Shown piece after piece: positions 10,951 through 28,007 of a DNA stretch of 38,628 bases. Within the stretch, counting starts at the first letter, position 1. Every line of letters begins with the position of its first letter. The notes beneath the pieces are model-generated. The model was not told the origin of the DNA. It worked only from the letters and a program-made list of their open reading frames with translations, and did no database searches. The stretch is from Candidatus Eiseniibacteriota bacterium. GTDB lineage: Bacteria; Eisenbacteria; RBG-16-71-46; SZUA-252. The stretch is from positions 1 through 38,628 of the forward strand of contig QJVW01000091.1 of NCBI GenBank assembly GCA_003235575.1, read 5' to 3'. Position numbers and translations under genes: made by a program.

Positions 10951-12170
10951 TCCCAGGTCCCCCCGAGCCGGACCCCTACCAGGAACGGGGCGTCGCTGCG
11001 CTGCAGATTGCGCGCGAGCGTCACCGCCAGCGGTCCCTCGCCGACGCGCAGCCCCACGCCGCCATCCAGCGTCGGCCTCGCGTCGTTCCAGCGGTCCCGG
11101 CCGAACCACGCCGCGCCCCAGTCTAGGAACGCGAACGCATCCAGGTTCTTCCGCGCCCGCAGCGCCCACTCCGCGTTCGCCAGGAAGAGCTGGTCGCCAT
11201 GGAATCGTTTGAAGGGCGTGCCGCGGAGCGTTCCGATCCCGCCCAGATCCCAAACCCGCTGGAGCGGGAGGCTTCCCGATCGGGTGGAGCCGACGATGAC
11301 GCGCAGCCGCGCCGTCTGGCCCCGGCCGACGCGTTGGCGCCAGTTCCCTTGGATTCGGATGCGGGCGTAATCGAAATCGCGGTCGATCGGATCGCCGGAT
11401 CGCTCGTAGCGGACGACGACCCGCGACCCGCCGCGGGCCGGGATCGCCTCCGGTCCGATGCGACCCTCTCCCCATACGAGTCCGTCGTCGCCTCGATCGA
11501 TGGCCGGGTTTTCCCGGAAGCGGTCGTCGTGACCCGTGAGCGCGACGCGGGTCCGCGTGCGAAGGGGGCGCTGCGTCTCCACGACGCCGCCGGCGGACAG
11601 CCCGACGTCGCTACCCGGACGCCACTGCACGTGCGCTTCGAAGCCTTCCGCCTCGTAGTGATCGCGATCGTCGGTGCGCGCCAGCAGGGCGAAGATCGTG
11701 TTCTCCGCCTCGCCCACGATCCACGCGTCCTTGGTCGCCGTCCGGCGATACAGGCTTCCACCGAGGAGGACGCGATGGCGGCGACCGAGGGGGAGATTGC
11801 CCTCGGCCGAGCCAAGCCCCCGCTCGCGCGAGAACGCGTATCCGAACACGGCCTCCAGGAGCGGGCGGCGTTGCAGCTCGTCGTGCACCGCGAGACCCGC
11901 CAGGATCGCCGGTCCATCCGCGCGGTTGTAGCGAAGGCGATAGACGGCGCCCAGCCGCGCCTCTTCCGGAAGTCCGGCCGCGAGCGTCTCCCACTCGGCG
12001 CTGCGCGTCGCCGGCAGCGGCGGTTCGGGGGCCCATCGAGCGGAATCCCCCGCGGCCGGCTCCGCCGCGGCCCGTCCGAACGCCACGCACACGAGCACCG
12101 CCGCGATGGGAACGGCGGCCACGATACGTCGGACGCGGCTACGCGCCGGCCGACTCACGCGCCAGTCCAT
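10947..12170 (-). CDS. Omp85/BamA-like outer-membrane beta-barrel without POTRA domains
   Basis: 407 residues with an N-terminal signal peptide (about 1-37). The C-terminal half has the pattern of the Omp85 barrel: alternating strands, then GIGTLRGTPFKRFHGDQLF, in which the RG motif corresponds to the conserved substrate-loop arginine-glycine of this superfamily, followed by NAEWALRAR and a terminal strand. The N-terminal region is too short for POTRA repeats and also looks like beta strands. The last residues are TWE, not the usual terminal aromatic. ATG 12170 overlaps the preceding regulator gene by 32 nt; GTG 12158 is an alternative start. Its place between an NtrC-type regulator and DUF4390 is unusual. 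Transport or lipid-related function is unknown. Confidence 0.72.
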   Translation of the reverse strand: MDWRVSRPARSRVRRIVAAVPIAAVLVCVAFGRAAAEPAAGDSARWAPEPPLPATRSAEWETLAAGLPEEARLGAVYRLRYNRADGPAILAGLAVHDELQRRPLLEAVFGYAFSRERGLGSAEGNLPLGRRHRVLLGGSLYRRTATKDAWIVGEAENTIFALLARTDDRDHYEAEGFEAHVQWRPGSDVGLSAGGVVETQRPLRTRTRVALTGHDDRFRENPAIDRGDDGLVWGEGRIGPEAIPARGGSRVVVRYERSGDPIDRDFDYARIRIQGNWRQRVGRGQTARLRVIVGSTRSGSLPLQRVWDLGGIGTLRGTPFKRFHGDQLFLANAEWALRARKNLDAFAFLDWGAAWFGRDRWNDARPTLDGGVGLRVGEGPLAVTLARNLQRSDAPFLVGVRLGGTWE

Positions 12171-13500
12171 AGCGCTTGATCTTTCGATGGAGGTACCCTC
12201 GATCCATTCCCAGGCGTCGCGCCGCCTCGCTGACGTTCCAATCGCAATCGCGGAGCGTCGAGAGAATCGTGTCGCGCTCCGCGCGATCGCGCGCCACCTT
12301 GATCTCGCTCGGCGGTCCGCCGTCCGAGTCTCCCGGAAGCGCTTCCTCCACCTCCGTGGACCCGATCGACTCGCCCTCGGTCATGATCAGGAGCCGCTCG
12401 ATCAGGTTGCGCAGCTCGCGGATATTCCCCGGCCATCCGTACCGCGAGAGGCGATCCATCGCCTCCGGCGTGACCGCGCGACGCGGCCGGCCGTGCTCGG
12501 CGCTGTACAGCGCGACGAAGTGCTCCACCAGGAGCCGGACGTCGTCACGCCGCGCGCGGAGGGGCGGCAGGTGGATCGGGACCACGTTCAACCGGTAGAA
12601 GAGATCCTCGCGGAAGCGCGAGGCCTGGATCTCGGCGGCCAGATCCTTGTTCGTGGCGGCGACGACGCGGGCGTCCACCGCGATGGACTTCGTGGATCCC
12701 AGCCGCTCGATCTCCCCGGTCTCGAGGGCGCGCAGGAACTTCGCCTGCGTCTCGAGGCTCATGTCGCCGACCTCGTCGAGAAAGAGCGTGCCGCCGTCCG
12801 CCGCCTCCAGCCGCCCGCGCTTCATCTGCGCGGCCCCGGTGAAGGCGCCCTTCTCGTAGCCGAAGAGCTCGCTCTCGACCAAATCCTTGGGGAGCGCGGC
12901 GCAGTTCATCTTTTCGAACGGCCCCCGCCCGCGCGCGCTCAGGCGGTGAATGGCCCGCGCCACCAGTTCCTTGCCGGTGCCGCTCTCTCCGGTGATCAGC
13001 ACCTTCGCGTCGGTGGGCGCCACCTTGGCGATCTCGGCGCGAATCTGCTCGATGACCTTGCTCTTGCCGATCATCTCGTCGGCGCCGCCGACGCGCTCAC
13101 GGAGACTCGCGTTCTCGCGCTGCAGCGCGCGCAATTCCAGGGCGCGCTCCACCGTCACCTGGAGCCGCTCCGGTCCGAACGGCTTCTCGATGAAATCGGC
13201 GGCCCCCAGCCGGATCGCCTTGACCGCCTCCTCGATGGTTCCGTGCCCCGACAGGAGCACTACCGGCAAATCCGGCGTGCCCGCCTTGGCCTCCTCGAGG
13301 AGCGTGAGGCCGTCCTTGCCGGGAAGCCGAAGGTCCGTGATCAGCAGATCGAGACGCTCGGTCGCGATGAGCTTCTCCGCCGCCTCGGCGCTCGTGGCGG
13401 TCAGGACGTCGTAGTGGCGCTTCAGCGCGCCGGCGATCTCGAGGAGGATCGATGGTTCGTCGTCCACGACGAGAACGCGGATCTTGGGGTTCGGACTCAT
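12139..13500 (-). CDS. NtrC/NtrX-family sigma-54-dependent response regulator
   Basis: 453 residues. Receiver domain 1-120 with acidic pocket Asp13-Asp14, phosphorylation site Asp56 and Lys106. AAA+ domain about 145-375: Walker A GESGTGKE (171-178, Lys177), the sigma-54 contact loop GAFTGA (218-223), and Walker B GGTLFLDEVG. The C-terminal Fis-type helix-turn-helix is NVSEAARRLGMDRGYLHRKI. It is therefore competent to activate sigma-54 promoters. ATG 13500 overlaps the stop of the sensor kinase gene (ATGA), so this is its cognate partner. The NtrX-like assignment rests on the NtrY-like kinase and DUF4390 neighbours. Confidence 0.95.
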   Translation of the reverse strand: MSPNPKIRVLVVDDEPSILLEIAGALKRHYDVLTATSAEAAEKLIATERLDLLITDLRLPGKDGLTLLEEAKAGTPDLPVVLLSGHGTIEEAVKAIRLGAADFIEKPFGPERLQVTVERALELRALQRENASLRERVGGADEMIGKSKVIEQIRAEIAKVAPTDAKVLITGESGTGKELVARAIHRLSARGRGPFEKMNCAALPKDLVESELFGYEKGAFTGAAQMKRGRLEAADGGTLFLDEVGDMSLETQAKFLRALETGEIERLGSTKSIAVDARVVAATNKDLAAEIQASRFREDLFYRLNVVPIHLPPLRARRDDVRLLVEHFVALYSAEHGRPRRAVTPEAMDRLSRYGWPGNIRELRNLIERLLIMTEGESIGSTEVEEALPGDSDGGPPSEIKVARDRAERDTILSTLRDCDWNVSEAARRLGMDRGYLHRKIKRYGLARESAGA

Positions 13501-15074
13501 CGCGTGGGCTGCTCCTTGGGTGTAGTGGCCGCGTCCGGCGGCGCCGCCGGGAGGGTGACGGTCGCGCGCGTTCCGCCCCCGGGGTTCGAGGCGAGCGTGA
13601 AGCGGCCGCCGTGCTGCTCGACGATTCGTTGCACCAACGTCAGGCCCAAGCCGCTCCCGCTCGGTTTCGTGGTGAAGCCGGGGTGACCGGCCCGCTCCAG
13701 CGTGCCGGGGTCCATGCCGGGCCCGTCGTCGGCCACCTCGAGTAGAAGTCCGCCGCCCTCCTCGTCGCGCTGCACGCGAAGCGTGATCGTGCCGCGCCCG
13801 CCCATCGCCTCCATCGCATTCTTGATCAGGTTGACGAGGACGCGCTGAATCTGTCCCGGGTCAGCCCAGGCTACGGGAAGGGAGGCCCCGCTCTCAACGC
13901 GGAATTCCACGGGCGAGCTGCCCCGGTACAGTCGCGCCACATCCTCCGCCAGGGCCCCCACGTCGCAGGCCTGGGGCTTGGGATCCGGCAACTGAGCCAC
14001 CGACGAGAAGGCCGTCGCGAATTCCTGCAGCGAGCGCACCTCGCGAAGAATCGCGTCGGTGCTCTCCGATACGACGTCGGGCCGCGGCCCTTCCGCGCGC
14101 TTCGCTTCCTCCTGAAGGCGCTGGAGCGCGAATTGAATCGGCGTCAGCGGGTTTCGGATCTCGTGCGCCACGGCCCGCGCCACCTCGCGCCATGCCGCCA
14201 GACGCTCCGCCTGGAGCAGCGCGCGGCGCGAAGTCTGGATCTCCTCCACCATGCGATTGAACGCACGGCCGAGGTATCGAACCTCGGCGGTTCCGCCCGG
14301 CGTGACGCGATGCGCCAGATCGCCCTCGGTCACCCGCTCCATTCCCGAGCGCAGTTCCAGAACCGGGCGGGCGACGCCGCGGGAGATGAGAACGGCGAGG
14401 GTGAACGACACCAGGCCGAGGATGATCGTCCAGAGCGCCGCGAAGAGCCAAACCCCTCGCTGGGAGAGCGACGTGTAGATTCCGAGCCGGCGGTACATCG
14501 TGAGGTTCTTCTGCAGCGCCTCGATCTCCGAGGAGACCTCGGGGTCGAGCTGATACCCGGCCAGGATCACGTGCTCGTTGCCGAGCGCCGCGACCCCGCT
14601 GACCTGCCGCGGCACGTCGCTTCCCGAAACGAGCCCGCCCGCGTCCCGCGCCGCCAGGAGCGCCGACCGCTCCGGCGTCGGCAGCGTGATGCGCGGTCCG
14701 AGCCTGGCGCCGAAGAGGCGGACCTCCTCCTCGCCGCCCACGCCGTAGAGACACACGTAGTCGAGCGCGCGTTCGCGCGCCTCCTCGCGCAGCAGGCGCT
14801 CGAGTGCCGCCATGTCCCCGGCCTCCAGCAGCCGGACGGTCTCCGGCGCGAGCGCCATCACCTCGGCATGGTGGCGTGCGTCGCTCCCCAGCCGCTCGAT
14901 GCCCTGGCGGATCACCTCAAGCGACTGCCCCAGCGCCCGTTCGGTTTCCGGATTTCGCAGCGCGGACAGGCTGCGCGCCAGGTACTGCGTCACCGCGTAC
15001 GTGAGGCCCAGGCTCGGAATGAGCGCGACGAGGAAGAAGAGGGCGAGGAGGCGTCCGCGAAGGGTGCGGAACAT
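13497..15074 (-). CDS. NtrY-like sensor histidine kinase
   Basis: 525 residues. Transmembrane helix about 9-30, a periplasmic sensor region about 31-205, a second helix about 213-240, HAMP about 240-293, HisKA with His304 in VAHEIRNPLTPIQFALQRL (the NPLTPIQ wording is typical of NtrY), then an HATPase_c domain with N (LVNLIKNAMEAMGG), G1 (DDGPGMD) and G2 (SGLGLTL) boxes. The frame is open to 15131, but that would overlap rlmN. ATG 15074, directly before the first hydrophobic helix and 14 nt after rlmN, is chosen. It phosphorylates the adjacent regulator by inference; the signal is unknown. No PAS domain is obvious, unlike most NtrY proteins. Confidence 0.92.
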   Translation of the reverse strand: MFRTLRGRLLALFFLVALIPSLGLTYAVTQYLARSLSALRNPETERALGQSLEVIRQGIERLGSDARHHAEVMALAPETVRLLEAGDMAALERLLREEARERALDYVCLYGVGGEEEVRLFGARLGPRITLPTPERSALLAARDAGGLVSGSDVPRQVSGVAALGNEHVILAGYQLDPEVSSEIEALQKNLTMYRRLGIYTSLSQRGVWLFAALWTIILGLVSFTLAVLISRGVARPVLELRSGMERVTEGDLAHRVTPGGTAEVRYLGRAFNRMVEEIQTSRRALLQAERLAAWREVARAVAHEIRNPLTPIQFALQRLQEEAKRAEGPRPDVVSESTDAILREVRSLQEFATAFSSVAQLPDPKPQACDVGALAEDVARLYRGSSPVEFRVESGASLPVAWADPGQIQRVLVNLIKNAMEAMGGRGTITLRVQRDEEGGGLLLEVADDGPGMDPGTLERAGHPGFTTKPSGSGLGLTLVQRIVEQHGGRFTLASNPGGGTRATVTLPAAPPDAATTPKEQPTR

Positions 15075-15088
15075 CGCGCTTCCGCGCG

Positions 15089-16201
15089 CTAGCGCGGAGG
15101 CTCCTCCACGGCGCCGGCGAGCTGGCCGCACGCGGCGCCGATGTCGACCCCCTGGCTGTAGCGGACCGTGACCGCGGCGACGCGCGGCACGAGATACTCG
15201 GAGAACCGGCGGATTCGCTCCTCGGAGGGGCGCCGGAATCGTCCGGGGCCGATCGGGTTGTAGGGGATCACGTTGATCTTGCAGGGGATCTGCGCCACCA
15301 GCCGCGCCAGCTTGGCGGCGTCGCGCACGTTGTCGTTGATCTCCTCGATGAGAATGTATTCGAACGTGACGCGCCGCCCCGTTCGCTGCACATGGTGCTC
15401 CACCGCCTTGATCAGCGCGGAGAGGGGAAACGTGCGGTTCACGGGCATCAGCTTGGAGCGGAGCTCGTCCGAGGCGGCGTGGAGCGAGATCGCCAGCCGG
15501 TAGCGGTGCCCCTCGTCGGCGAGGCGCATGATCTGGGGAACGAGCCCCACCGTCGAGATCGTGATCCGTTTCGGGGGGAGCCCGGCGCCCGTCGGCGGCG
15601 CGCCGGTCAGGTGTCCCAGGGCGCCCATGACCGCGTCGTAGTTTTCGAGCGGCTCGCCCATGCCCATCATCACGACGTTGAACTCGGTGACGCCCGGCGG
15701 CAATTCACGCCGCAGGCGCAGGGCCTGTTCCACGATTTCACCCGCGCTCAGGTTTCGACCGCGGCCCATGCGGCCGGTGGCGCAGAAGCGGCAGGCGAAG
15801 CCGCATCCGTGCTGCGAGGAGAGGCAAAACGTGTAGCGACGCGAGGTCGCCATGTAGACCGCCTCGACGATGCCGCCTTCCGGGATGGCGAGTCCGACCT
15901 TCCGCGTGCGACGATCCGGCGTTTCCCGCCGGGCCACTTCGCGCAGCGAGCCGACGCGGTATCCCTCGGCGAGTTTCGAGCGGAGCGCGTGGGGGAGGTT
16001 CGTCATCGCGGCGATGTCACGCGCCCCCCTTGCGTACAGCCACTCCGCGATCTGGCGACCCCGGTACGGCTTCTCCCCGAGCCCGATCAGGATGCGTTCC
16101 AGCGTGCCCAACGGGAGACCAAGCAGGTCCACCCGTCCGTCGGGTGACTCGTGGCCGCCGCCATTTTGCGACAGGATAATGGGTTCCGGCTTTACAGGCA
16201 T
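15089..16201 (-). CDS. rlmN: Dual-specificity 23S rRNA/tRNA adenine-C2 methyltransferase
   Basis: 370 residues. A radical-SAM enzyme that methylates A2503 of 23S rRNA and A37 of some tRNAs. The cluster motif CxxxCxxC is Cys133, Cys137, Cys140 (GCGFACRFCATG). The GEPLENYD and SLHAASDELRSKLMPVNR segments are typical. The methyl-carrying cysteine is expected in the C-terminal GAACGQL segment and its partner near YTFCLSS. It is the first gene of a five-gene minus-strand operon with ntrY/ntrC-like genes, the barrel and DUF4390. A promoter ends 8 nt before ATG, so the mRNA is nearly leaderless, although AGGGGA lies in that gap. Confidence 0.96.
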   Translation of the reverse strand: MPVKPEPIILSQNGGGHESPDGRVDLLGLPLGTLERILIGLGEKPYRGRQIAEWLYARGARDIAAMTNLPHALRSKLAEGYRVGSLREVARRETPDRRTRKVGLAIPEGGIVEAVYMATSRRYTFCLSSQHGCGFACRFCATGRMGRGRNLSAGEIVEQALRLRRELPPGVTEFNVVMMGMGEPLENYDAVMGALGHLTGAPPTGAGLPPKRITISTVGLVPQIMRLADEGHRYRLAISLHAASDELRSKLMPVNRTFPLSALIKAVEHHVQRTGRRVTFEYILIEEINDNVRDAAKLARLVAQIPCKINVIPYNPIGPGRFRRPSEERIRRFSEYLVPRVAAVTVRYSQGVDIGAACGQLAGAVEEPPR

Positions 16202-17883: not shown

Positions 17884-20800
17884 ATGGACGATCGCAAGAC
17901 AACCCCTAGCGTCGCGAAGAAATCGCGTCGGGCCGCCGCGCCCGACGTAAGCGCGGCGGAGTCTGTGCCGATCGAGGCCGGTGGGCCGAAGGCACAGGAA
18001 CTCGGGGACCTTTATTTCGCCGCGGAGAACTTCGGCGCGGCGTTGGAGTGCTACCGGCGCGCGCTGGAGGCGGAGTCGGCGCGCCCGGATGGCACGAACC
18101 GCGAGACGATGCTGCGTCTCGGAACCCAGATCGTGGAGTGCCTCCGCCATCGCGGCGACGTCGACGAGGCCGTCGATACGCTGCGGGACCTACACCGTCG
18201 CCTGCGCTCGCACGTGCAGAAGGAGCAGATCGGCCGCCTGGCACTGAGTCTGGCGGTCCTGCACTACGAGCGCGGGCGGTACCGCCCCGCGCACCGCGCG
18301 GCGACCCTGGCGTACCGGCTCCTCCGAGACTCCTCCCGCCATCTCGATCTAGGGCGCACCGAAACCGTGCTCGGCATCGTCGCGCTGCGGACGGGCGAGT
18401 GGGAGTCCGCGCGCGAACATTTCGAGAACGTGATCGGAACTTATCGGCGCGCTGGCTATCAGGAGGGCTTGGCGGCCGCGTACAACAACCTGGCGCTCGT
18501 CTACAAGAACCAGGGCCGCTTCAAGGAGAGCACCCGCTATCTCGAGGAGGCGCTGCGTATCGCCGAGCGGTGCGGATTCTTCGTCGACAGCGCGACCTAC
18601 CTTCACAATCTGGGCATCCTGCACGACAAGATGGGCGAGTTCGACCTCGCCGAAGAGCTGTTTCAGCGCGGCTTGACCATCTACACGGAGGTCGGGTATC
18701 ACGCCGGCCGCTGCCGCGCGCTCAACTGCATGGGCATCGTCCGCCGTCGTCGGCACGACTTCGCCACCTCGGAATCGCTGTCACGCCAAGCGCTCGCGAT
18801 CGCCGAGGAGCGCGACTACGCGCGCGAGCGGGTCATCGTCGAGGAAGCTCTGGGCGATCTGGCGGTCGAGCAGGGCGACGCGGAAGCCGCGCGCCGCCAC
18901 TATCGGACGGCCTACGACCTGGCGCAGGAGGTGGCGCCCGATTCCGACCTGACGGTCCAGATCGTTCGGCGCCTGGGCGACCTGGAGCTGAGCCAATCCG
19001 ATCTCGAGGCGGCCGAACGCCACGCGATGCGCGCGCTCGATCTGGCGCGCGAACTGGGCGACCGCGTCGAAGAGGGCTGCGCGCTGCGGCTTCGCGGATT
19101 CCTCCGACTGGAGCAGGGAGACCTGGAAGGCGCCGCCGCCTCGCTTCAGGAGGCGATCGATCTCTTCTCGGCGCTCGGCATCCGCTACGAGCTGGCACGG
19201 CTGCACATTTCCGCGGGCATCGGCTGGCGCCGCCGCGCGCGCCGCGGGAAGGCCCGAGGCGTGCTCGACCGGTCGGTCGCGTGCCTCCGCCGCGCCGTGG
19301 CGGGATTCGAGGGCCTCGTCGTTCCGCACTGGACCGCCCGTGCGCTGCTCGAGCTCGCGCGAAGCGAGCTGCTCCGGGGGCTCTTGGATGAGGCGGTGAT
19401 CCACGCGGATCACGCGACCTCGCTCCTGACCCCGGGCGACGACGCCGAGCTGACCGCCGAAATCGAGGATTTCCGCGCCGAGATCGAGCGCGGACTGATC
19501 GACGGCACCGCCTCGTCGAGCAACGAGTTCGCCGCGTTCGAAGAGGTGCGGGACGTGCTGCGACGCGGAGACGCCGACGGCGCCGTGCAGGACGTTCTGT
19601 CGGTCGTGGCCCGTCGCGCGAACGCGACGCGCGGATTTGTCGTGGCGCCCGCGGCCTCCGGATCACTGGAGGTCGTCGCCGCGCTGGCGATCGCGCCGCG
19701 ATCCGCGCACGAATTGCTGGTGGAGATCGAACGGCGTGTTGGCGCGCCTCGCCTCGCCGCCGCGCCGCTCGTCTGCAGCCGCGCCGGCGCGGACGAGCGA
19801 TTCCGCGACCTGCCGGGGTCCGCGCACATCGGGCCCAGGACGACGATCGCGATGGTGCCGCTACCGCTGCCGTCCGGGCAGCCGGGCTTCCTCTACCTCG
19901 ATCGCGGAGAAGACGGCCCGTACGGCGCATTCAAGCAGCGCGAGATCAACCTGATCGCGGTGCTGGCGAATCACGTCGCCATGTCCATTCTCGAATTGCA
20001 GCGACAGAAGCTGGCGCGTGAGAATACCGCGCTTCGCGGCCGGCTCCTTGGCTCCGCGAACGAGCACGGAATCGTCACGCGAAGCCCCGAACTGCTGGAG
20101 ATCATCTCCCTCTTGGATCGCGTGGGCCCGTCGGATGCCACGATCCTGATCGAGGGCGAGACGGGAAGCGGCAAGGGACTCCTGGCGAGGGCGATTCACG
20201 CCTCGAGCGCGCGCACCGAAAAGCCGCTCATTCAGGTCAACTGCGCGGCGCTTCCGGAGCATCTCCTCGAGAGCGAACTCTTCGGGCACGTCCAGGGAGC
20301 CTTCACCGGCGCGGTGCGCGACAAGGTGGGGCTTTTCGTCGAGGCGAGCGGCGGCACGATCTTCCTCGACGAGGTCGACAAGACCTCGATCACGATCCAG
20401 GGCAAGCTGCTGCAGGTCCTGGATACGAAGGAAGTGCGGCCCGTCGGCGGCAACCGCGGGCAGATCGTGGACGTCCGCGTTCTCTGCGCCACCAACGTCA
20501 ACCTCAAGGCGCGCATCGCGCGCGGCGAGTTCCTCGAGGATCTCTACTACCGGCTGAACGACATCTGCTTCCGGGTGCCGCCGCTTCGTGAGCGGCCGGA
20601 GGACGTCCCGCTCCTCATCGATCACTACGCTCGGCACTACGCGCGGGAGATGGGGAAGGAAATCCGGGGGGTCGATCCCGACCTGGTCGCCGCGTTCGCG
20701 GGCCTCCCCTGGAGAGGAAACGTCCGCGAGTTGGAAAAGGCGATGAAGCGAATGGTCGTGATGGCGAACGACGGGGAGGTTCTGTCGCTTCGGCTCGCGC

Positions 20801-21024
20801 CGCGCGATCTCCTGAACGTCGAAGAGGAGGCGAGCGAAGGTCCCGCCACGCTGCGGGTCGAGGTCGCGAAAGTGGAGCGCCGCGTCATCGCGCAGGCCCT
20901 GGAGCGTCATAACTGGAACAAGGTCCAGGCGGCGAAGGAGCTTTCGCTCAGCTACCCCACCCTGCTCCAGAAAATTAAGACCTTCCGCCTCGATCGCAGG
21001 AACGTGACTCGGCAAAGAGCTTAA
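17884..21024 (+). CDS. TPR-GAF-AAA+-Fis sigma-54-dependent transcriptional activator
   Basis: 1046 residues. TPR repeats run from about 37 to 540 (for example YNNLALVYKNQGRFKES, YLHNLGILHDKMGEFDLAE); a GAF-like domain lies at about 555-700; a short coiled linker follows; the AAA+ domain spans about 720-950 with Walker A GETGSGKG (Lys764), the sigma-54 contact loop GAFTGA (805-810) and Walker B GGTIFLDEVD; a Fis-type helix-turn-helix ends the protein (NKVQAAKELSLSYPTLLQKI). It has no receiver domain, so it is a one-component regulator sensing through TPR and GAF. ATG 17884 follows a weak GGCCGGA. A terminator follows at 21055. Two sigma-54 promoters lie within 0.6 kb downstream and are obvious candidate targets (inference). 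Confidence 0.95.
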   Translation: MDDRKTTPSVAKKSRRAAAPDVSAAESVPIEAGGPKAQELGDLYFAAENFGAALECYRRALEAESARPDGTNRETMLRLGTQIVECLRHRGDVDEAVDTLRDLHRRLRSHVQKEQIGRLALSLAVLHYERGRYRPAHRAATLAYRLLRDSSRHLDLGRTETVLGIVALRTGEWESAREHFENVIGTYRRAGYQEGLAAAYNNLALVYKNQGRFKESTRYLEEALRIAERCGFFVDSATYLHNLGILHDKMGEFDLAEELFQRGLTIYTEVGYHAGRCRALNCMGIVRRRRHDFATSESLSRQALAIAEERDYARERVIVEEALGDLAVEQGDAEAARRHYRTAYDLAQEVAPDSDLTVQIVRRLGDLELSQSDLEAAERHAMRALDLARELGDRVEEGCALRLRGFLRLEQGDLEGAAASLQEAIDLFSALGIRYELARLHISAGIGWRRRARRGKARGVLDRSVACLRRAVAGFEGLVVPHWTARALLELARSELLRGLLDEAVIHADHATSLLTPGDDAELTAEIEDFRAEIERGLIDGTASSSNEFAAFEEVRDVLRRGDADGAVQDVLSVVARRANATRGFVVAPAASGSLEVVAALAIAPRSAHELLVEIERRVGAPRLAAAPLVCSRAGADERFRDLPGSAHIGPRTTIAMVPLPLPSGQPGFLYLDRGEDGPYGAFKQREINLIAVLANHVAMSILELQRQKLARENTALRGRLLGSANEHGIVTRSPELLEIISLLDRVGPSDATILIEGETGSGKGLLARAIHASSARTEKPLIQVNCAALPEHLLESELFGHVQGAFTGAVRDKVGLFVEASGGTIFLDEVDKTSITIQGKLLQVLDTKEVRPVGGNRGQIVDVRVLCATNVNLKARIARGEFLEDLYYRLNDICFRVPPLRERPEDVPLLIDHYARHYAREMGKEIRGVDPDLVAAFAGLPWRGNVRELEKAMKRMVVMANDGEVLSLRLAPRDLLNVEEEASEGPATLRVEVAKVERRVIAQALERHNWNKVQAAKELSLSYPTLLQKIKTFRLDRRNVTRQRA

Positions 21025-21040
21025 AATCCTTCTATAAGAA

Positions 21041-21118
21041 GATTTGATAGTGATAAGCCCATGGACGCCATGGGCTTTCTTGTTTTCGGCGGGGCGACTA
21101 TCAAATCATTGTCAAATC
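21041..21118. repeat. Three TCAAATC motif copies (one inverted)
   Basis: GATTTGATAG (21041-21050) and CTATCAAATC (21098-21107) form a perfect 10-bp inverted repeat around the terminator. A further TCAAATC (21112-21118) follows the second arm exactly 11 bp (one helical turn) after the previous copy. These lie about 140-220 bp upstream of the predicted start of the structured RNA, where sigma-54 activators usually bind. They could instead only extend the terminator stem. Confidence 0.4.
21055..21085 (+). terminator. Rho-independent terminator of the TPR-GAF activator gene
   Basis: A perfect 10-bp stem (21055-21064 with 21068-21077, three-base loop) is followed by a T-rich tract (TCTTGTTTT). 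It begins 31 nt after the stop codon. Confidence 0.8.
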
Positions 21119-21233: not shown

Positions 21234-21249
21234 TGGCACGCACCATGCA
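21234..21249 (+). promoter_or_regulatory. Sigma-54 (-24/-12) promoter 1
   Basis: TGGCACGCACCATGCA fits the TGGCAC-N5-TTGCA consensus with the exact GG-N10-GC spacing (GG 21235-21236, GC 21247-21248) and only one mismatch in the conserved blocks. Transcription should begin near 21260, just before the structured RNA. Confidence 0.75.
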
Positions 21250-21259
21250 AAAGTATAGT

Positions 21260-21397
21260 GCCTGGAGGGGGGGACCTCCAACGAGCCCGCAGGTCTAGTC
21301 AGCGTTGGGCCATGGGTTAGCGGCCAAAGAGAGCACCGGCCTCTCTTGAAGACGTGTAACCCGACAGGAGCTGACTAGGCCGGGGCTCAATTTTTTT
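21260..21397 (+). ncRNA. Structured small RNA, sigma-54-driven, no known family
   Basis: About 138 nt with a compact fold seen by hand. 5' hairpin: 21263-21268 with 21275-21280. Long closing stem: 21283-21288 with 21383-21388, then, after a small internal loop, 12 contiguous pairs (21292-21303 with 21370-21381). Inside: GGGTTA 21314-21319 with TAACCC 21357-21362, capped by AAGAGAG 21327-21333 with CTCTCTT 21341-21347 and a seven-base loop containing the palindrome CCGG. The closing stem is followed by AA and T7 (21391-21397), so the RNA ends as an intrinsic terminator. There is no ORF with a ribosome site inside. I considered 6S, SRP RNA, tmRNA, RNase P and common riboswitches and found no match. 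It could be a trans-acting sRNA or a terminated leader of the operon downstream. Confidence 0.6.
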
Positions 21398-21565: not shown

Positions 21566-21581
21566 TGGCATGTCGCTTGCG
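21566..21581 (+). promoter_or_regulatory. Sigma-54 (-24/-12) promoter 2
   Basis: TGGCATGTCGCTTGCG has exact GG-N10-GC spacing (GG 21567-21568, GC 21579-21580) and an intact TTGC block. Transcription should begin near 21592, about 47 nt before the lipoprotein start. It is the likely promoter of the lipoprotein/DUF4384 genes. Confidence 0.75.
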
Positions 21582-21638: not shown

Positions 21639-22418
21639 ATGAACGGAATACTTCGAGGAGGCATCGGAGCGGCCGCGTTCCTAGCGATCCTCGCGACGAC
21701 CGGCTGCAAGGATCATGACCGCGTCATCACGGCCGATCCGCCACCCTTCGTGGTGGAGGGAGTCCGCAGCATCACCGGAGACAACGAGGTGACGATTCTC
21801 TGGCGCGCCAACCAGGAGTTCGACATCGCGTACTACGCGATCTACCGGAATAGCGTGGCGCCCACCGGCACCTTTCATCTCATTGGCACGTCTACCGGTA
21901 CGAGCTACGTCGATCACGACGTCGTGAACGGAAACACGTACTATTACGCCGTCTCCGCGGTGGATGACGCCGGCCAGGAGAGCCCCGAGCTCTCGTACGA
22001 GAACGCGTTCGATACGCCGCGTCCCGAGGGCTTCAACGAGACCATGACGAACGCGCTGACGAACGATCCCTCGAGCGGTTGGGACTTCTCAGCGTACAGA
22101 AACCGTGCGTCGCTCGATCCGGGGACGGACGTCTACTACGAATATCAAAACGGGCACTACCTGATCTTCGTGCCCGTCGATACAAAGGTTCAGGACGCAG
22201 GATTCGTCACGCTTCGCGACGTGGACTACGCTCCCCCCGCCGGTTGGTCGGCGGATGGCGTCGTCGAGGCGATCGTCGGCCACTCCTACGTGTTCTACAC
22301 GCGGGACGGCCACTACGCGAAACTGGAGGTCAAGACGCGCGGCACGGGCGGAATCACGTTCGACTGGGCGTACCAGATCGATCCCGACAATCCGGAGCTC
22401 GCGAGGAGAATGCCATGA
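21639..22418 (+). CDS. Exported FN3-domain protein, probable lipoprotein
   Basis: 259 residues. The N-terminus is a short hydrophobic signal followed by ATTGC (Cys23), an imperfect lipobox, so lipidation is likely but not certain. A fibronectin type III-like fold covers about 38-118 (TILWRANQEFDIAYYAIYRN, then GTSYVDHDVVNGNTYYYAVSAVDDAGQES). The rest (about 130-255) has aromatic-rich beta strands and no family I know. The frame is open from ATG 21606, but ATG 21639 has an excellent GGAGGAGGAGGG 8 nt upstream. The stop overlaps the next gene (ATGA). It stands directly behind sigma-54 promoter 2. It is likely a periplasmic or surface protein working with the DUF4384 partner. Confidence 0.75.
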   Translation: MNGILRGGIGAAAFLAILATTGCKDHDRVITADPPPFVVEGVRSITGDNEVTILWRANQEFDIAYYAIYRNSVAPTGTFHLIGTSTGTSYVDHDVVNGNTYYYAVSAVDDAGQESPELSYENAFDTPRPEGFNETMTNALTNDPSSGWDFSAYRNRASLDPGTDVYYEYQNGHYLIFVPVDTKVQDAGFVTLRDVDYAPPAGWSADGVVEAIVGHSYVFYTRDGHYAKLEVKTRGTGGITFDWAYQIDPDNPELARRMP

Positions 22419-23758
22419 AGACCCGCATCGGCGTGGCCGCGATCGTGATCGCGGCCGCGTCCTGGAGCCTCTCTCTGACACCGTCGATCGCCGCCGCGGC
22501 CACCCAGGTGCCCGCGGCCCGCGGTCGGCTCGACGTCGACGTCTGGACGAACAAGGAAGAGGGCGGCGTCTACCACTCGGGCGACAGAATGCAGGTCTTC
22601 TTTCGCGCGAGCCAGGACGCGTACGTATTGATCTACAACATCGACACCGAGGGCTACATCCACCTCATTTACCCGTTCCGGCCCCGCGATCCCGTGCGGA
22701 TTGAAGGCGGAGAGACCTACCGTGTGCCCGCCCGGCAGGACCCGTACGACCTCGTGGCCGAAGGGCCGACCGGCGTCGAATACGTCGTGGCGATCGCGAG
22801 CCCGCTCCCCTTCCAGGATCTGCCATGGTTCCTGGCGCCGGGGCTGGCCGAGGAGTCGCGAGAGGCGTACGAGGAAGGAGACGACCTCGATCAGGGCGTC
22901 GTCGTCGGCGATCCCTACGTGGGCATGGAGCGGCTCCATCGGCGCCTTGTGCCCGAGGGGAGGGAAGACCAGGTCGCTTCCGCCGACACCTATTTCTACA
23001 TCGACCGCCGCGTGGAGTATCCGCGCTACGTCTGCGCCGACTGCCACCACCGCACCTACTGGTTCGATCCGTACGTGGGCCACTGCTCGGTCATCGAAAT
23101 CCGCATCGACGCCACGTGGGCACGGTACGCCCCGCTTCGCGTCCACCGCGCGCGGCCGCGCTACTACTACACGGTTCGCTCCACGGCGCCGACCCGCTAC
23201 CGCAAGTGGAAGAGCCGGTGGTCCTCGCTGGACGGACCGTCGACCCTGCGGTCCAAGTTCGTCCTCGAGCGAGAGCGCCGCTCGCGGGACGTGACGCCGC
23301 GTCGCAAGACGCCGCCGGAGTTCAAGGATTTGCGCCGAAATCGTCCCGGCCGGTTCTGGCAGGGGCGCGACCAGATTCTCAAGGTCCGTGAGCGTCGGGA
23401 GCGGGCGCAGCAGGAGGCGCGCGAACGACGGGACGCCGCGAAGGAGAAGCGCGACCGCAGCAAGGCCAACGTCACCCCGCGCTCCCGGCGCGACAAGGAT
23501 CCTCCGACCCCGCCGGAGGCGCGAAATCGCGAATCGGATCGGTCCCGGGATCGACGGGAGCGGATCGAGAAGCGCCGCCAAGAGTCGCGGGACGAGGAAA
23601 AGAAACGCGAGCGGGAGGTGAAGGAGCGCAAGAAGTCCTCCCGTGGGTCGAGCGGCTCCGGCGATCGATCGGCGAAGGAGAAATCGAAGGAGAAGAAGCA
23701 GCAGTCGGAATCGTCGCGGAATCGGGGTGGTGGCGACCGGTCCGGGCGCGGGCGCTAG
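22415..23758 (+). CDS. Exported DUF4384 protein with long charged tail
   Basis: 447 residues. Signal peptide about 1-28 (IGVAAIVIAAASWSLSLTPSIAAAA). A DUF4384-like domain covers about 38-130 (VYHSGDRMQVFFRASQDAYV, IDTEGYIHLIYP), a fold often fused to kinases and proteases and found in surface proteins. Residues 207-226 hold CADCHH and a later GHC, which could bind zinc; CxxCH would also fit a c-type haem site. From about residue 280 on the chain is dominated by R, K, E, D and S and is probably disordered or a long charged helix. ATG 22415 overlaps the lipoprotein stop and has GAGGAG upstream. The function is unknown. Confidence 0.72.
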   Translation: MKTRIGVAAIVIAAASWSLSLTPSIAAAATQVPAARGRLDVDVWTNKEEGGVYHSGDRMQVFFRASQDAYVLIYNIDTEGYIHLIYPFRPRDPVRIEGGETYRVPARQDPYDLVAEGPTGVEYVVAIASPLPFQDLPWFLAPGLAEESREAYEEGDDLDQGVVVGDPYVGMERLHRRLVPEGREDQVASADTYFYIDRRVEYPRYVCADCHHRTYWFDPYVGHCSVIEIRIDATWARYAPLRVHRARPRYYYTVRSTAPTRYRKWKSRWSSLDGPSTLRSKFVLERERRSRDVTPRRKTPPEFKDLRRNRPGRFWQGRDQILKVRERRERAQQEARERRDAAKEKRDRSKANVTPRSRRDKDPPTPPEARNRESDRSRDRRERIEKRRQESRDEEKKREREVKERKKSSRGSSGSGDRSAKEKSKEKKQQSESSRNRGGGDRSGRGR

Positions 23759-23794
23759 CCCGCCCCGGAGCCGGCGCAGCCATCACGGCTATCG

Positions 23795-23824
23795 TTGACC
23801 CCGCTAGGAGCGCGCGGATACACT
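23795..23824 (+). promoter_or_regulatory. Promoter giving a leaderless M6 protease mRNA
   Basis: TTGACC (23795-23800), 18 nt, TACACT (23819-23824). Only six bases lie between the -10 box and GTG 23831, so transcription would start at the start codon itself. The TTG that could open a longer frame at 23795 is the -35 box. Confidence 0.6.
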
Positions 23825-23830
23825 CGTAGG

Positions 23831-26800
23831 GTGCGAATCCGCGCGCTTCGTTTCGTTACCTTCCTTGTCTTCACCGCGATCGTTCTCGCCGTCGTGCCGC
23901 GGGCTCGCGCCGCGCACCGCGTTCCACCCGTGCCCGGCAAGCAGGGAACGCTGGGTCCGCGCGAGGGCTTCTCCACCGCGAGGATGAGGATCCCGGCCAA
24001 CCCCGGGGTGCTGAATGGCGCGCGCGCTCCGCTGGCGGGGAATGCCGTGCGGCAGGTCCTGGCCATCCGCGTGGCGTTTTCCGATACTCCGATCGACTCC
24101 TCCACCGCGTACTACGAACGCCTGCTCCTCTTCCTCAATCAATTCTGGAGCCAGTCCACCGACGGATTCGTGACCCTCAACCCGACGCTCGTCGACTCGG
24201 TCTTCACGCTGCCCCAGACGATGGCCTACTACGGCGACGACGACCGCTTCCAGGAACGTCTCGTCTACCTGATCCGCGACGTCGTGGCCGTCGCCGATTC
24301 GACCGTCGACTTCCGAAACAAGGATCTCGTCGTGTTTCACGCCGGGCAGGGGCAGGAAGCGGACGTCCTGGACAACAGCCGCGACCAGATCTGGTCGGCG
24401 TTCGTGACCCCCGACGACTTCCAAAAGATCCTTCCCGACCCCACCGGGGCGGTCGGGATTCAAACCAACGACGAAATCTCCCCCGGCGTTTTCTACCGGG
24501 TCACCGAGGCCGCCGAGTTGCCCGAATCGGAGAGCCAGGACGGATATACGTTCGGCATGATGGGCGTCGTCTGCCACGAATACGGCCACCAACTGGGGCT
24601 GCCCGACCTCTACGACACCACGCCCGACGAGGAAGGGAACAACCAGGGATTGGGCGCGTGGGACGTCATGGCCGGCGGGGTGTGGAACTACAACGGGTTC
24701 GTCCCGTCCAAACCCAGCGCCTGGTCCCGCCTCTTCCTGAATGTCGTGGCGCCGGCGCGCGTCCTGTCGGACGGATCCTTCCAACTCTCGCGCCTCGACC
24801 CGCCGGTGGCGCCGCATCCGCGCGCGGTGCAGATTCCGCAGACGCAGACGGAATACCTGCTCCTCGAGAATCGCGACCAAGATCCGAACCGGAACGGCAC
24901 GTTCGACTTCGACGACCAGGACGGCGACGGGCTCTTCGACTTCTACACCGACAGCTACGCCGGCGCGGAGTTCGACTTCTACCTACCGGGCGAAGGGTCC
25001 GGCTCGGGCATCACGATCTATCACGTGGACGAGGCGAAGATCGCCGCCACGCTGACGTCGAACACCGTGAACGGGGACACCCGTCGGAAGGGCGTCGATC
25101 TGGTGGAAGCGGACGGCGTCGAGGACCTCGACGCGCCCCCGACGACGTTGAGCGCCGGCTCCACCGACGACGTCTATCGCGGCGGGTACCGCGACCGGCT
25201 CACGCCCGATACGGTTCCATCGTCGGCGGCCTACGGGGACGTTCGAACCGGGATCTCAGTGACGGCGATTTCCGCGGCGGACAGCGTGATGTCGTTCGAC
25301 GTCTCCATCGAACGAACGCGCCCCGGGTTCCCGAAAGTCGTGAACGGTCGCGTGTTTGGAAACGCCTCGGTCGCCGCGGACATCGACGGCGACGGAACGA
25401 CCGAAATCCTGGTCCCGGTGCAGCGACTGAACAACACCGGGGCGCTCTACGTCTTCCGTGAGGACGGAACGGACTACCTGGACGGCGACGCCATCCCGAC
25501 GCCGTTCGTGACGACGCCCACCACACGCATCGCGTCGAGCCCCTGCGTCGGCGACATCGACGGTGTCGCGGGGAACGAGATCGTATTCCAGACCGCGGAC
25601 GGCGCCTTCTATGCCTTCAAGAGCGACGGGACGGAATTGCGGGACGGAGACAACAATCCCGGCACGCTCGGCGTGCTCGTCGGCGGCGGCGGGTTGCCGA
25701 CGCGGGCGCAGCCGATTCTCGCCGACCTCGATGGTCTGCCCGGTCTGGAGATCGTGGTCGGCTCCACCGCCAATCCCTTGGGCAGCTCGACGCTCACGGT
25801 CATCAAGGCGAGCGGGCCCTCGATCGTGCGTTACTTCCTCCCGATCGCCGGCTCCAGCGAGGCGGCCCCCGTGGCCGCGGACGTCGACGGCGACGGATTC
25901 GCCGAGGTGCTGGTGGCGCACACCGCCGTCCAAGGGGCGGAGGACCTCAGCCTGAACGGTCTGACGATCGCCAATTGGGAGATTCTCACCGACGTCGACC
26001 TTCCCCGCGATCCTTCGTTCTCGGACCTCTACGTCGTCCACGCCGGCGGCCCGTACGGAGCCCCCGTTTGTGCGGATCTGAACCGTGACGGATCGGCGGA
26101 GGTCCTGCTCGCGGACCGCGCGGGAAGATTCCACGCGCTGACCTTCTCGTTCGCGCCGCACATACCGGGCGACCCGCCGTCGATCTACGTCGGCGTCGAG
26201 GAACTGTCCGGGTGGCCCGCGACGATCGCGGGCGGCGGCCGCGCCGTGGAGATCTCGGTCGGGGATCTGGAGCATGACGGGTATCCGGAGATCTTCCAGA
26301 CGGGCGAGGGGACGCGGGTCGCGGCATTTCATTGGAACGGGGCGCCTCGGTCCGGATTTCCGGTCGGCCCGGGCGATCCGCTCGCGCCGGCCGACAGCTC
26401 CGGCGTCTTCGCGCCGCTGATCGCGGACGTCGATGGGGACGGCTTTCTCGACGTGATCGCGATCTTGCCGGACGGCCGCCGGCTCGCCTACCGCCGGGAC
26501 GGCTCCCGGATCGATTCGTTCGGCGAATTGGGGTCCACCGGCCTGTCGGCGCCTCCCATGCTGGCCGATCTCGACGGAGACGGCTCCGCGGAGTGGATCG
26601 AAACCTACGACCTATCGTCCCAGTGCGTCATCCTCGTGCGCGAAACGGAGATCGCGGTCGCATCGGGGACCCTGGCCTGGAACCAGTGGCGCCTCGGCCC
26701 GACGCGCAACGCGGCCGCCGCGAACGGGCCGATCGGGACTCCCGGCGGGACCCGAAATCTCTCGGAGGTGTATGCCTATCCGAACCCTGCCCGGGGCGGG

Positions 26801-27043
26801 ACCACCACGATTCACTACAGGCTCCAGGCCCCGGCGGACCACGTTCAGGTCCAGATTTTCGACGCCGCCGGATCGCTGGTCGCCGAGCCCCCGCTGGATG
26901 CGGCCGACCGAGCCGGTTCCGCGGAGCATGCGGTAGTATGGAACCATGCCGCGATTTCGAGCGGCGTTTATGTCTGTCGCGTTCAAGCGACGTCGGCGGC
27001 CGGTACCGAGGTCGTGGTGACCCGGCTCGCCGTGCTTCGCTAG
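23831..27043 (+). CDS. Secreted M6-family metalloprotease with beta-propeller and type IX-like C-terminal domain
   Basis: 1070 residues from GTG 23831. Signal peptide about 1-28. Peptidase M6 (immune inhibitor A-like) domain about 60-490 with the zinc motif HEYGH at 249-253, followed by LGLPDLYD and a WDVMAGG segment (family Met-turn). Residues about 505-960 hold FG-GAP/VCBS-like repeats with DxDxDG calcium loops (for example ADIDGDGTTEI, ADVDGDGFAEV, ADLDGDGSAEW), likely a beta-propeller. The last 85 residues (VYAYPNPARGGTTTIHYRL ... GVYVCRV) form a FlgD-like/type IX sorting-type Ig domain. No Shine-Dalgarno sequence is seen; the promoter predicts a leaderless mRNA. It is likely surface-attached or secreted, helped by the PorV-family protein encoded next. 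Confidence 0.92.
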   Translation: MRIRALRFVTFLVFTAIVLAVVPRARAAHRVPPVPGKQGTLGPREGFSTARMRIPANPGVLNGARAPLAGNAVRQVLAIRVAFSDTPIDSSTAYYERLLLFLNQFWSQSTDGFVTLNPTLVDSVFTLPQTMAYYGDDDRFQERLVYLIRDVVAVADSTVDFRNKDLVVFHAGQGQEADVLDNSRDQIWSAFVTPDDFQKILPDPTGAVGIQTNDEISPGVFYRVTEAAELPESESQDGYTFGMMGVVCHEYGHQLGLPDLYDTTPDEEGNNQGLGAWDVMAGGVWNYNGFVPSKPSAWSRLFLNVVAPARVLSDGSFQLSRLDPPVAPHPRAVQIPQTQTEYLLLENRDQDPNRNGTFDFDDQDGDGLFDFYTDSYAGAEFDFYLPGEGSGSGITIYHVDEAKIAATLTSNTVNGDTRRKGVDLVEADGVEDLDAPPTTLSAGSTDDVYRGGYRDRLTPDTVPSSAAYGDVRTGISVTAISAADSVMSFDVSIERTRPGFPKVVNGRVFGNASVAADIDGDGTTEILVPVQRLNNTGALYVFREDGTDYLDGDAIPTPFVTTPTTRIASSPCVGDIDGVAGNEIVFQTADGAFYAFKSDGTELRDGDNNPGTLGVLVGGGGLPTRAQPILADLDGLPGLEIVVGSTANPLGSSTLTVIKASGPSIVRYFLPIAGSSEAAPVAADVDGDGFAEVLVAHTAVQGAEDLSLNGLTIANWEILTDVDLPRDPSFSDLYVVHAGGPYGAPVCADLNRDGSAEVLLADRAGRFHALTFSFAPHIPGDPPSIYVGVEELSGWPATIAGGGRAVEISVGDLEHDGYPEIFQTGEGTRVAAFHWNGAPRSGFPVGPGDPLAPADSSGVFAPLIADVDGDGFLDVIAILPDGRRLAYRRDGSRIDSFGELGSTGLSAPPMLADLDGDGSAEWIETYDLSSQCVILVRETEIAVASGTLAWNQWRLGPTRNAAAANGPIGTPGGTRNLSEVYAYPNPARGGTTTIHYRLQAPADHVQVQIFDAAGSLVAEPPLDAADRAGSAEHAVVWNHAAISSGVYVCRVQATSAAGTEVVVTRLAVLR

Positions 27044-27065
27044 CAATTTCGCCCAGGAGATTCCG

Positions 27066-28007
27066 ATGCCCCGCGCCAACCGATCCACCCCGCGCCGGTC
27101 CGCCGGCTTGTTTGCCATCGCGCTCGTCCTGGCGGGATCCCTCGCCGCGGGAAGCGCCCACGCCGCCGTCGGCGAAGCAGGCTTCGCCTTCCTCAAGGTA
27201 GGCGTCGGAGCGCGCGCCATGGGATTGGGCAGCGCGTTCGTCGCCGTCGCCGACGACCCGACCGCGCTTCACTGGAATCCCGCGGGACTCGCGGCGGCGC
27301 ACAAGGGCGTCGCGGTGACCGCCATGCACAACGAGTGGATCGAGGATTTCCGCCAGGAGTACGCGGCGATCTCGGGCCCGGTCGGGCCCGGAACGGCCGG
27401 GGCGTCCTTCACCGGGTTCTATACCTCGGAGCTGGAGCGGCGCGACGATACGGGCGTGCTGATCGGCCATTTCGGCTTCAACGACATCGCCGCGACGCTG
27501 GGCTACGGCGCGACGGTCGCCCGCGGTTTCGACGCCGGCGCGTCGGTGCGCTATATCCGCGAAATGATCGACAGCGAAGACGCGACGTCGGTGGCCATCG
27601 ATCTCGGGGGACGCTACCGCGTGCCCGACACCGGGCTCTCCCTGGGCGCCGCCCTCCAAAACGTGGGAGGCGAGGCGACCTTCGTCTCCGAGTCGTTCCC
27701 GCTGCCTCGCACGATTCGCGCGGGGGCGGCCTACCGGCACGCGCTCGGCGCCAGCGGCAACAGCGCGCTCCTCACGACCGAGTACCGGAAGGCGCGCGGC
27801 GACGACGGAAAGTTCCACGTCGGAGGGGAATTCGGATTTCGCGATTGGCTGGCGCTACGCGCGGGAGCGAAGTTCGGATACGACGATCAGGATCTGAGCT
27901 TCGGGATGGGCGTCGTGCGCGGCGTGATTCGCTTCGATTACGCCATTCTGCCGATCGGTTCGAATCTCGGGTCCAGCCACTTCTTTTCGATCGGGGCGAA
28001 CCTCTAG
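27066..28007 (+). CDS. PorV/PorQ-family outer-membrane protein
   Basis: 313 residues. Signal peptide about 1-34 (AGLFAIALVLAGSLAAGSAHA). The mature start FLKVGVGARAMGLGSAFVAVADDPTALHWNPAGLA is the hallmark of the PorV/PorQ (UPF0164, FadL-like) family, followed by a beta-barrel pattern ending in an aromatic-rich strand. In type IX secretion PorV carries substrates with C-terminal sorting domains from the SprA pore to the attachment complex. It lies 22 nt after the M6 protease gene, with AGGAG at 6-nt spacing, so the two are co-transcribed; the pairing of a sorting-domain protease with a PorV homologue suggests a dedicated export partner. Confidence 0.88.
   Translation: MPRANRSTPRRSAGLFAIALVLAGSLAAGSAHAAVGEAGFAFLKVGVGARAMGLGSAFVAVADDPTALHWNPAGLAAAHKGVAVTAMHNEWIEDFRQEYAAISGPVGPGTAGASFTGFYTSELERRDDTGVLIGHFGFNDIAATLGYGATVARGFDAGASVRYIREMIDSEDATSVAIDLGGRYRVPDTGLSLGAALQNVGGEATFVSESFPLPRTIRAGAAYRHALGASGNSALLTTEYRKARGDDGKFHVGGEFGFRDWLALRAGAKFGYDDQDLSFGMGVVRGVIRFDYAILPIGSNLGSSHFFSIGANL

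Follow-up and report, generated by a model that had tools for sequence, protein, structure and literature searches.

Qrr and GlmY/GlmZ are small RNAs whose expression depends on sigma-54. Other regulatory RNAs act by titration: CrcZ, whose family is represented in Rfam, titrates Hfq, and RsmY and RsmZ titrate RsmA. In the cbrB-crcZ arrangement, an RpoN-dependent RNA is encoded after its own activator (PMC6292655), and CrcZ serves as a decoy that sequesters a translational repressor (PMC4063720). In the papers searched, neither a noncoding RNA nor sigma-54 was reported for Candidatus Eisenbacteria. The window analysed here, a stretch of 38,628 nucleotides from a member of this phylum, carries a predicted noncoding RNA of ∼138 nt (21260..21397) downstream of a gene for a TPR-GAF-AAA+-Fis activator. 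Unless stated otherwise, the window features described below lie on the + strand.

Like CrcZ and CrcY of Pseudomonas and Azotobacter, this RNA appears to be an RpoN-dependent, independent transcription unit placed just after an activator gene, and the long form found in other families of the phylum matches them in length (∼400 nt). Unlike CrcZ and CrcY, it has no sequence match in Rfam scans and no A-rich repeats were seen in it; its activator is of the TPR-GAF rather than the CbrB type, and its function is untested. The best reading, by analogy of arrangement, is an RNA organised like Pseudomonas cbrB-crcZ and unrelated to it in sequence. Qrr and GlmY/GlmZ, which the preliminary description had offered as precedents, likewise place a structured intergenic RNA between a sigma-54 promoter and an intrinsic terminator. 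However, they too show no sequence match, and the RNA here is single copy, is tightly linked to a TPR-GAF activator and has no recognised single-stranded seed. By analogy CrcZ, a sigma-54 RNA whose gene follows that of its activator, is the better precedent. CsrB, RsmY, RsmZ and McaS resemble the RNA in having a GGA-containing sequence in hairpin loops, and the 3′ hairpin of the long form recalls the CsrA consensus. Nonetheless, the RNA here has only one or two such sites, its G-tract loops are longer, Rfam gives no match and no CsrA was detected in the window's genome.

The RNA is preceded by a −24/−12 sigma-54 promoter (21234..21248, TGGCAC-GCACCA-TGC), with a predicted +1 at ∼21260. The pattern TGGCAYN6TGC has only two occurrences in the whole window (21234-21248 and 21566-21580) versus 0.28 expected. 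Segment 21255-21400 has a predicted fold of −65.8 kcal/mol (z = −3.1), and 0 of 200 shuffles were as stable. The predicted transcript ends in a U7 terminator tail (21391..21397), with T-runs at the equivalent place in most homologues from the window's family (f1). A simple terminator scan left this 3′ end unflagged because its stem encloses a long domain, while the scan covers loops of 3-8 nt only. The same scan flagged a separate terminator at 21055-21077, between activator and RNA, where an intrinsic terminator of the activator gene (21055..21085) comprises a 10-pair stem and a T-rich tail. At loci of family f8, such as L065 (G032), L070 (G038) and L064 (G030), terminator-like hairpins after the activator gene and before the RNA promoter have a common loop such as CGAGUUAGC or GGCACUUAGCC, a conservation beyond the need of a plain terminator. 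No ORF longer than 14 aa closes within the window RNA and none is conserved; a coding RNA was rejected for want of a conserved ORF. Rfam gave no match at the gathering threshold on either strand of the window; a relaxed threshold returned only chance matches, at E = 0.49 (outside the RNA) and E = 4.9. A scan of the f8 and f9 loci (E up to 1) likewise gave nothing above the gathering score.

Three nested stems follow a 5′-terminal hairpin. This hairpin, P1 (21264..21281, GGAGG-GGGGGA-CCUCC-AA), is nearly invariant phylum-wide, with a loop of variable length (4-6 G plus A). P3, the closing and terminator stem (21283..21388; strands 21283-21303 and 21370-21388), has 18 pairs, with 99.3% of cells paired and 3 double-change pairs. 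Within it, P4 (21314..21362) joins GGGUUA (21314-21319) to UAACCC (21357-21362) next to an adjacent GC helix. A segment-by-segment comparison revealed two compensatory pairs in GGGUUA/UAACCC, U-A to A-U in genome G005 and U-A to C-G in G002, and helix 4 has 2 double-change pairs. The apical stem P5 (21327..21347, AAGAGAG/CUCUCUU) contributes 4 double-change pairs and presents an invariant loop, CACCGGC (21334-21340), which recurs in family f6 as CCCCGGC. For the eight f1 sequences, RNAalifold predicted 38 pairs, 8 of them with double compensatory changes. Our counting tool found double changes in 9 of the 38, a number that 0 of 500 shuffles reached, versus 3.6 in shuffles. In the f1 alignment 97.4% of cells are paired, versus 28-48% in slid versions. 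P1 lacks any variation and is thus uninformative by covariation; the conserved feature is its sequence. The most conserved part of the RNA is this 5′ hairpin sequence and not the stems.

These results uphold most of what the preliminary description had proposed from the window alone. Its −24/−12 promoter, 138-nt body, 5′ hairpin, 18-pair closing stem and two inner stems are all present, and its statement that no ORF lies inside holds. It had the closing stem run straight into T7; the T7 is there, but an AA intervenes. Two of its claims exposed it to refutation and survived: that the RNA belongs to no recognised family, for which an Rfam match had been named beforehand as the refuting outcome, and that its stems would covary in homologues beside TPR-GAF-Fis activators. 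A −24/−12 promoter at the proper distance from the RNA start, and conserved structure with compensatory changes together with an absence of coding capacity, are criteria for a sigma-54-dependent small RNA, and the noncoding RNA in the window satisfies both. The RNA is real and represents an apparently undescribed family of a known general kind, with strong comparative evidence for structure and promoter.

The RNA extends well beyond the window. A DNA search found homologues in 7 of the 8 other genomes of the window's family (E 3e-23 to 2.5e-42) and, in a second family, f8, matched only the promoter and the 5′ hairpin. The hairpin alone (GGAGGGGGGGACCTCCAA, one mismatch allowed) occurs in 24 of 47 phylum genomes with one match each, and its reversed-pattern control had zero matches. 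At all 24 of these hairpin-only loci a sigma-54 promoter lies 13-15 nt upstream, an event with a chance of 0.3% per random 40-nt stretch. Promoter and hairpin of variable loop length together were found in 38 of the 47 phylum genomes, in single copy each, with 0 matches in the reversed-pattern control and 0 in 338 genomes from outside Candidatus Eisenbacteria. Among the nine phylum genomes that lack this combination, three (f6) carry, at a promoter of this kind, a divergent RNA that the covariance model of the window's family matches at E 2e-7 to 3e-5. Another, G011 of family f4, has the 3′ module of the long form beside the activator; in G007 and G027 a contig end truncates the activator or lies near it; nothing was found in the three f7 genomes. 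A mobile or viral origin was ruled out, the hairpin being absent from viral contigs, single copy and syntenic. The genomes are mostly draft assemblies and their counts are not independent events. The RNA is, by these searches, phylum-wide and single-copy in nearly every sequenced member of Candidatus Eisenbacteria.

Other families carry a 200-400-nt form of the RNA, whose terminator stem contains a second G-loop hairpin. In f8, for example, the RNA extends to such a stem around the hairpin ACA-YUGGGGGA-UGU, and 12 of the 26 pairs in this 3′ domain have double changes (0 of 500 shuffles). This domain covaries well in an f8-only alignment, whereas a mixed-family alignment was misaligned and gave no structure. 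A 13-bp stem in the f8 middle domain is conserved in sequence and has only one covarying pair, which is weak evidence of structure. Within the phylum, GGGGGATGTCCAGGC with no mismatch was found at this RNA locus only. The window RNA has no 3′ G-loop module and looks like a compact form. The f6 RNAs (L088:4344-4469, L091:4806-4939 and L125:3298-3429) also follow a sigma-54 promoter of this kind, with GGGGCUUCCGAAAGUGCGACCUGGGUUGGUCGG in place of the G-loop hairpin, and the long terminator domain in which they end is a different one (GGGAAGCGGCU...AGCCGCUUCCC). None of the three f6 genomes (G013, G016 and G019, one of them a single contig) has CsrA, and f6 is the family in which the RNA lost its G-loops.

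The presumed activator of the RNA (17884..21024) is a sigma-54 activator (bEBP) with Pfam matches to TPR_12, GAF, Sigma54_activat (1e-61) and HTH_8 and a GAFTGA motif in its translation. Relatives of this protein occur in 47 of 47 phylum genomes, and RpoN in 45 of 47, including the window's genome. Of 20 long loci inspected, 19 have the RNA downstream of the activator orthologue on the same strand; at the 20th (L066) the contig edge is reached before the activator. Wherever the flanks can be read, the RNA adjoins this orthologue, and genes for the lipoprotein, the DUF4384 protein and the PorV-like protein usually lie downstream. This synteny supports the claim of the preliminary description that the upstream TPR-GAF activator controls the RNA, though there are no binding data. 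Upstream of the RNA promoters the dyad CAACNNGTTG is enriched, its best match averaging 6.37 of 8 where shuffles reach no more than 5.66; upstream of the second promoter described below, its excess over shuffles is slight (5.79 versus at most 5.67). This dyad emerged across all families and was picked post hoc for the RNA promoter; its match in the window itself is poor, and an exact search upstream of the f1 promoters found nothing above shuffles.

A second sigma-54 promoter (TGGCATGTCGCTTGC, 21566..21580) precedes the first gene of a presumed co-regulated operon. This gene (21639..22418) encodes a lipoprotein, recognised from the lipobox in its translation and from synteny; it has no Pfam match and is fibronectin-III-like by eye. 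In most loci it has a sigma-54 promoter of its own. The rest of the presumed co-regulated block (22079..28007), assigned from domain matches and synteny, comprises a DUF4384 protein of uncertain start (within ORF 22079-23758), an M6-peptidase/FG-GAP protein with a Por_Secre_tail-like end (23795-27043) and a PorV-like UPF0164 protein (27066-28007). The M6-type peptidase with FG-GAP repeats thus adjoins the PorV-like protein (23795-28007), and the pair could represent a cargo of type IX-like secretion with its partner, both controlled by sigma-54. Also nearby, on the − strand (12139-15131), are a second sigma-54 activator of the NtrC response-regulator type and a histidine kinase, whose synteny with the locus is often kept. 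The preliminary description understated the case. It missed the phylum-wide single copy, the sequence conservation of the 5′ hairpin, the long G-loop form, the lipoprotein gene's own sigma-54 promoter and CrcZ as the better precedent.

We consider it highly probable that the RNA is a sigma-54 noncoding RNA under the control of the neighbouring activator. Transcription, and activation by this protein, are inferred without binding or transcript data; the inference of activation rests on the constant linkage, the sigma-54 promoter and the presence of RpoN in nearly all genomes. The separate terminator ahead of the RNA, and the RNA's staying beside the activator where the operon has moved, also count in favour. 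The evidence for control by the neighbouring activator is good, and that for a mode of action is only suggestive. In the scheme we propose, the activator would switch on the RNA from the RNA's own promoter, and the RNA would be made alongside the lipoprotein and secretion operon. The G-rich hairpin loops (GGGGGA at the 5′ end and, in other families, ACA-YUGGGGGA-UGU) would then titrate an RNA-binding protein, and via this decoy the activator may alter translation elsewhere while turning on its surface genes. A decoy for an RNA-binding protein is the likeliest action, although it is inferred and we hold it only tentatively. The invariant G-loops suggest a binding site, and a loop conserved in sequence and variable in length was counted in favour of a decoy, as were the likeness of the 3′ loop to the CsrA consensus and a gene arrangement matching that of cbrB-crcZ, whose RNA is a decoy. 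Counted against it are the lack of a CsrA match in the window's genome and six others with the hairpin, the single G-loop of the window's compact RNA, where decoys usually have repeated sites, and the nature of P1, a very stable GC hairpin, whereas the hairpins that CsrA selects are mostly short (PMC7652899).

The mode of action, though not the identity of the RNA, would be different if it were a trans-acting, base-pairing small RNA in the manner of Qrr or GlmZ, with the G-rich or the CACCGGC apical loop pairing to C-rich or otherwise complementary stretches of target mRNAs. Invariant single-stranded loops carried on variable stems (the P1 loop, and CACCGGC in f1 or CCCCGGC in f6) speak for such pairing, and so does the short independent predicted transcript with a U-tail. 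The RNA is, however, very highly structured and has no long conserved single-stranded seed; no genome-wide target search was made, and base pairing stays a possibility of less than even weight. If titration is the mechanism, CsrA is a candidate partner because the loop of the long form, ACA-YUGGGGGA-UGU, is near the CsrA consensus RUACARGGAUGU (PMC7652899). CsrA is present in 31 of the 38 hairpin-bearing genomes, and its absence from f6 parallels the loss of the G-loops there, although f6 is a single evolutionary event. The loop here is 4 nt longer than the consensus. Several GGA sites would be expected of an RNA of the RsmY/CsrB kind, yet the window form has one G-loop and the long form two. 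Moreover, no CsrA match was found in seven hairpin-bearing genomes, including the window's draft genome, while the RpoN control was missing in only 2 of 38, so that more is lacking than incompleteness alone suggests. Titration of CsrA specifically is accordingly unlikely in our estimate, and the partner is left open.

Two further alternatives were considered. The 5′ hairpin might be a DNA element, either a palindromic protein site or a promoter-proximal pause sequence, with the RNA body serving another role or none. P1 never covaries, is conserved in sequence and not in pairing alone, and begins right after the predicted +1, all of which would suit such an element. Nonetheless, the spacing of its arms differs by 1-2 bp among genomes, which is unusual for a DNA palindrome and disfavours a simple one; the RNA body covaries strongly, and the second sigma-54 promoter has no hairpin. 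We therefore regard a DNA element as very unlikely. Least credible is that the RNA serves the downstream lipoprotein operon as a regulatory leader, of the attenuator or riboswitch type, despite its position between activator and operon and its terminator end. The operon has its own sigma-54 promoter 3′ of the RNA, and where the lipoprotein gene has another location, as in G003 and G004, it keeps that promoter, while RNA and activator are still adjacent. From this we conclude that the RNA forms a unit of its own, tied to the activator, and we reject the leader.

A decoy remains our preferred reading. In its fullest form, which we offer as conjecture, the one or two G-tract loops of a modular phylum-wide RNA class would act as decoys for a post-transcriptional regulator, be it CsrA or a protein not yet known. 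A dedicated TPR-GAF sigma-54 activator, in command of a surface and secretion programme as well, would have these RNAs made on demand. It is unusual for the extreme 5′ end of a transcript to form an 18-nt G-loop hairpin with almost no variation, and this points to a specific binding partner that has yet to be identified. The promoter, predicted start site, covarying stems and invariant loop provide ready handles for tests. Across most families of an uncultured phylum, an apparently undescribed RNA family is found once per genome, at a locus that links a sigma-54 activator with a TPR-GAF sensor, the RNA and a secretion operon. The RNA is probably a regulator whose activation coincides with that of a group of surface and secretion genes.
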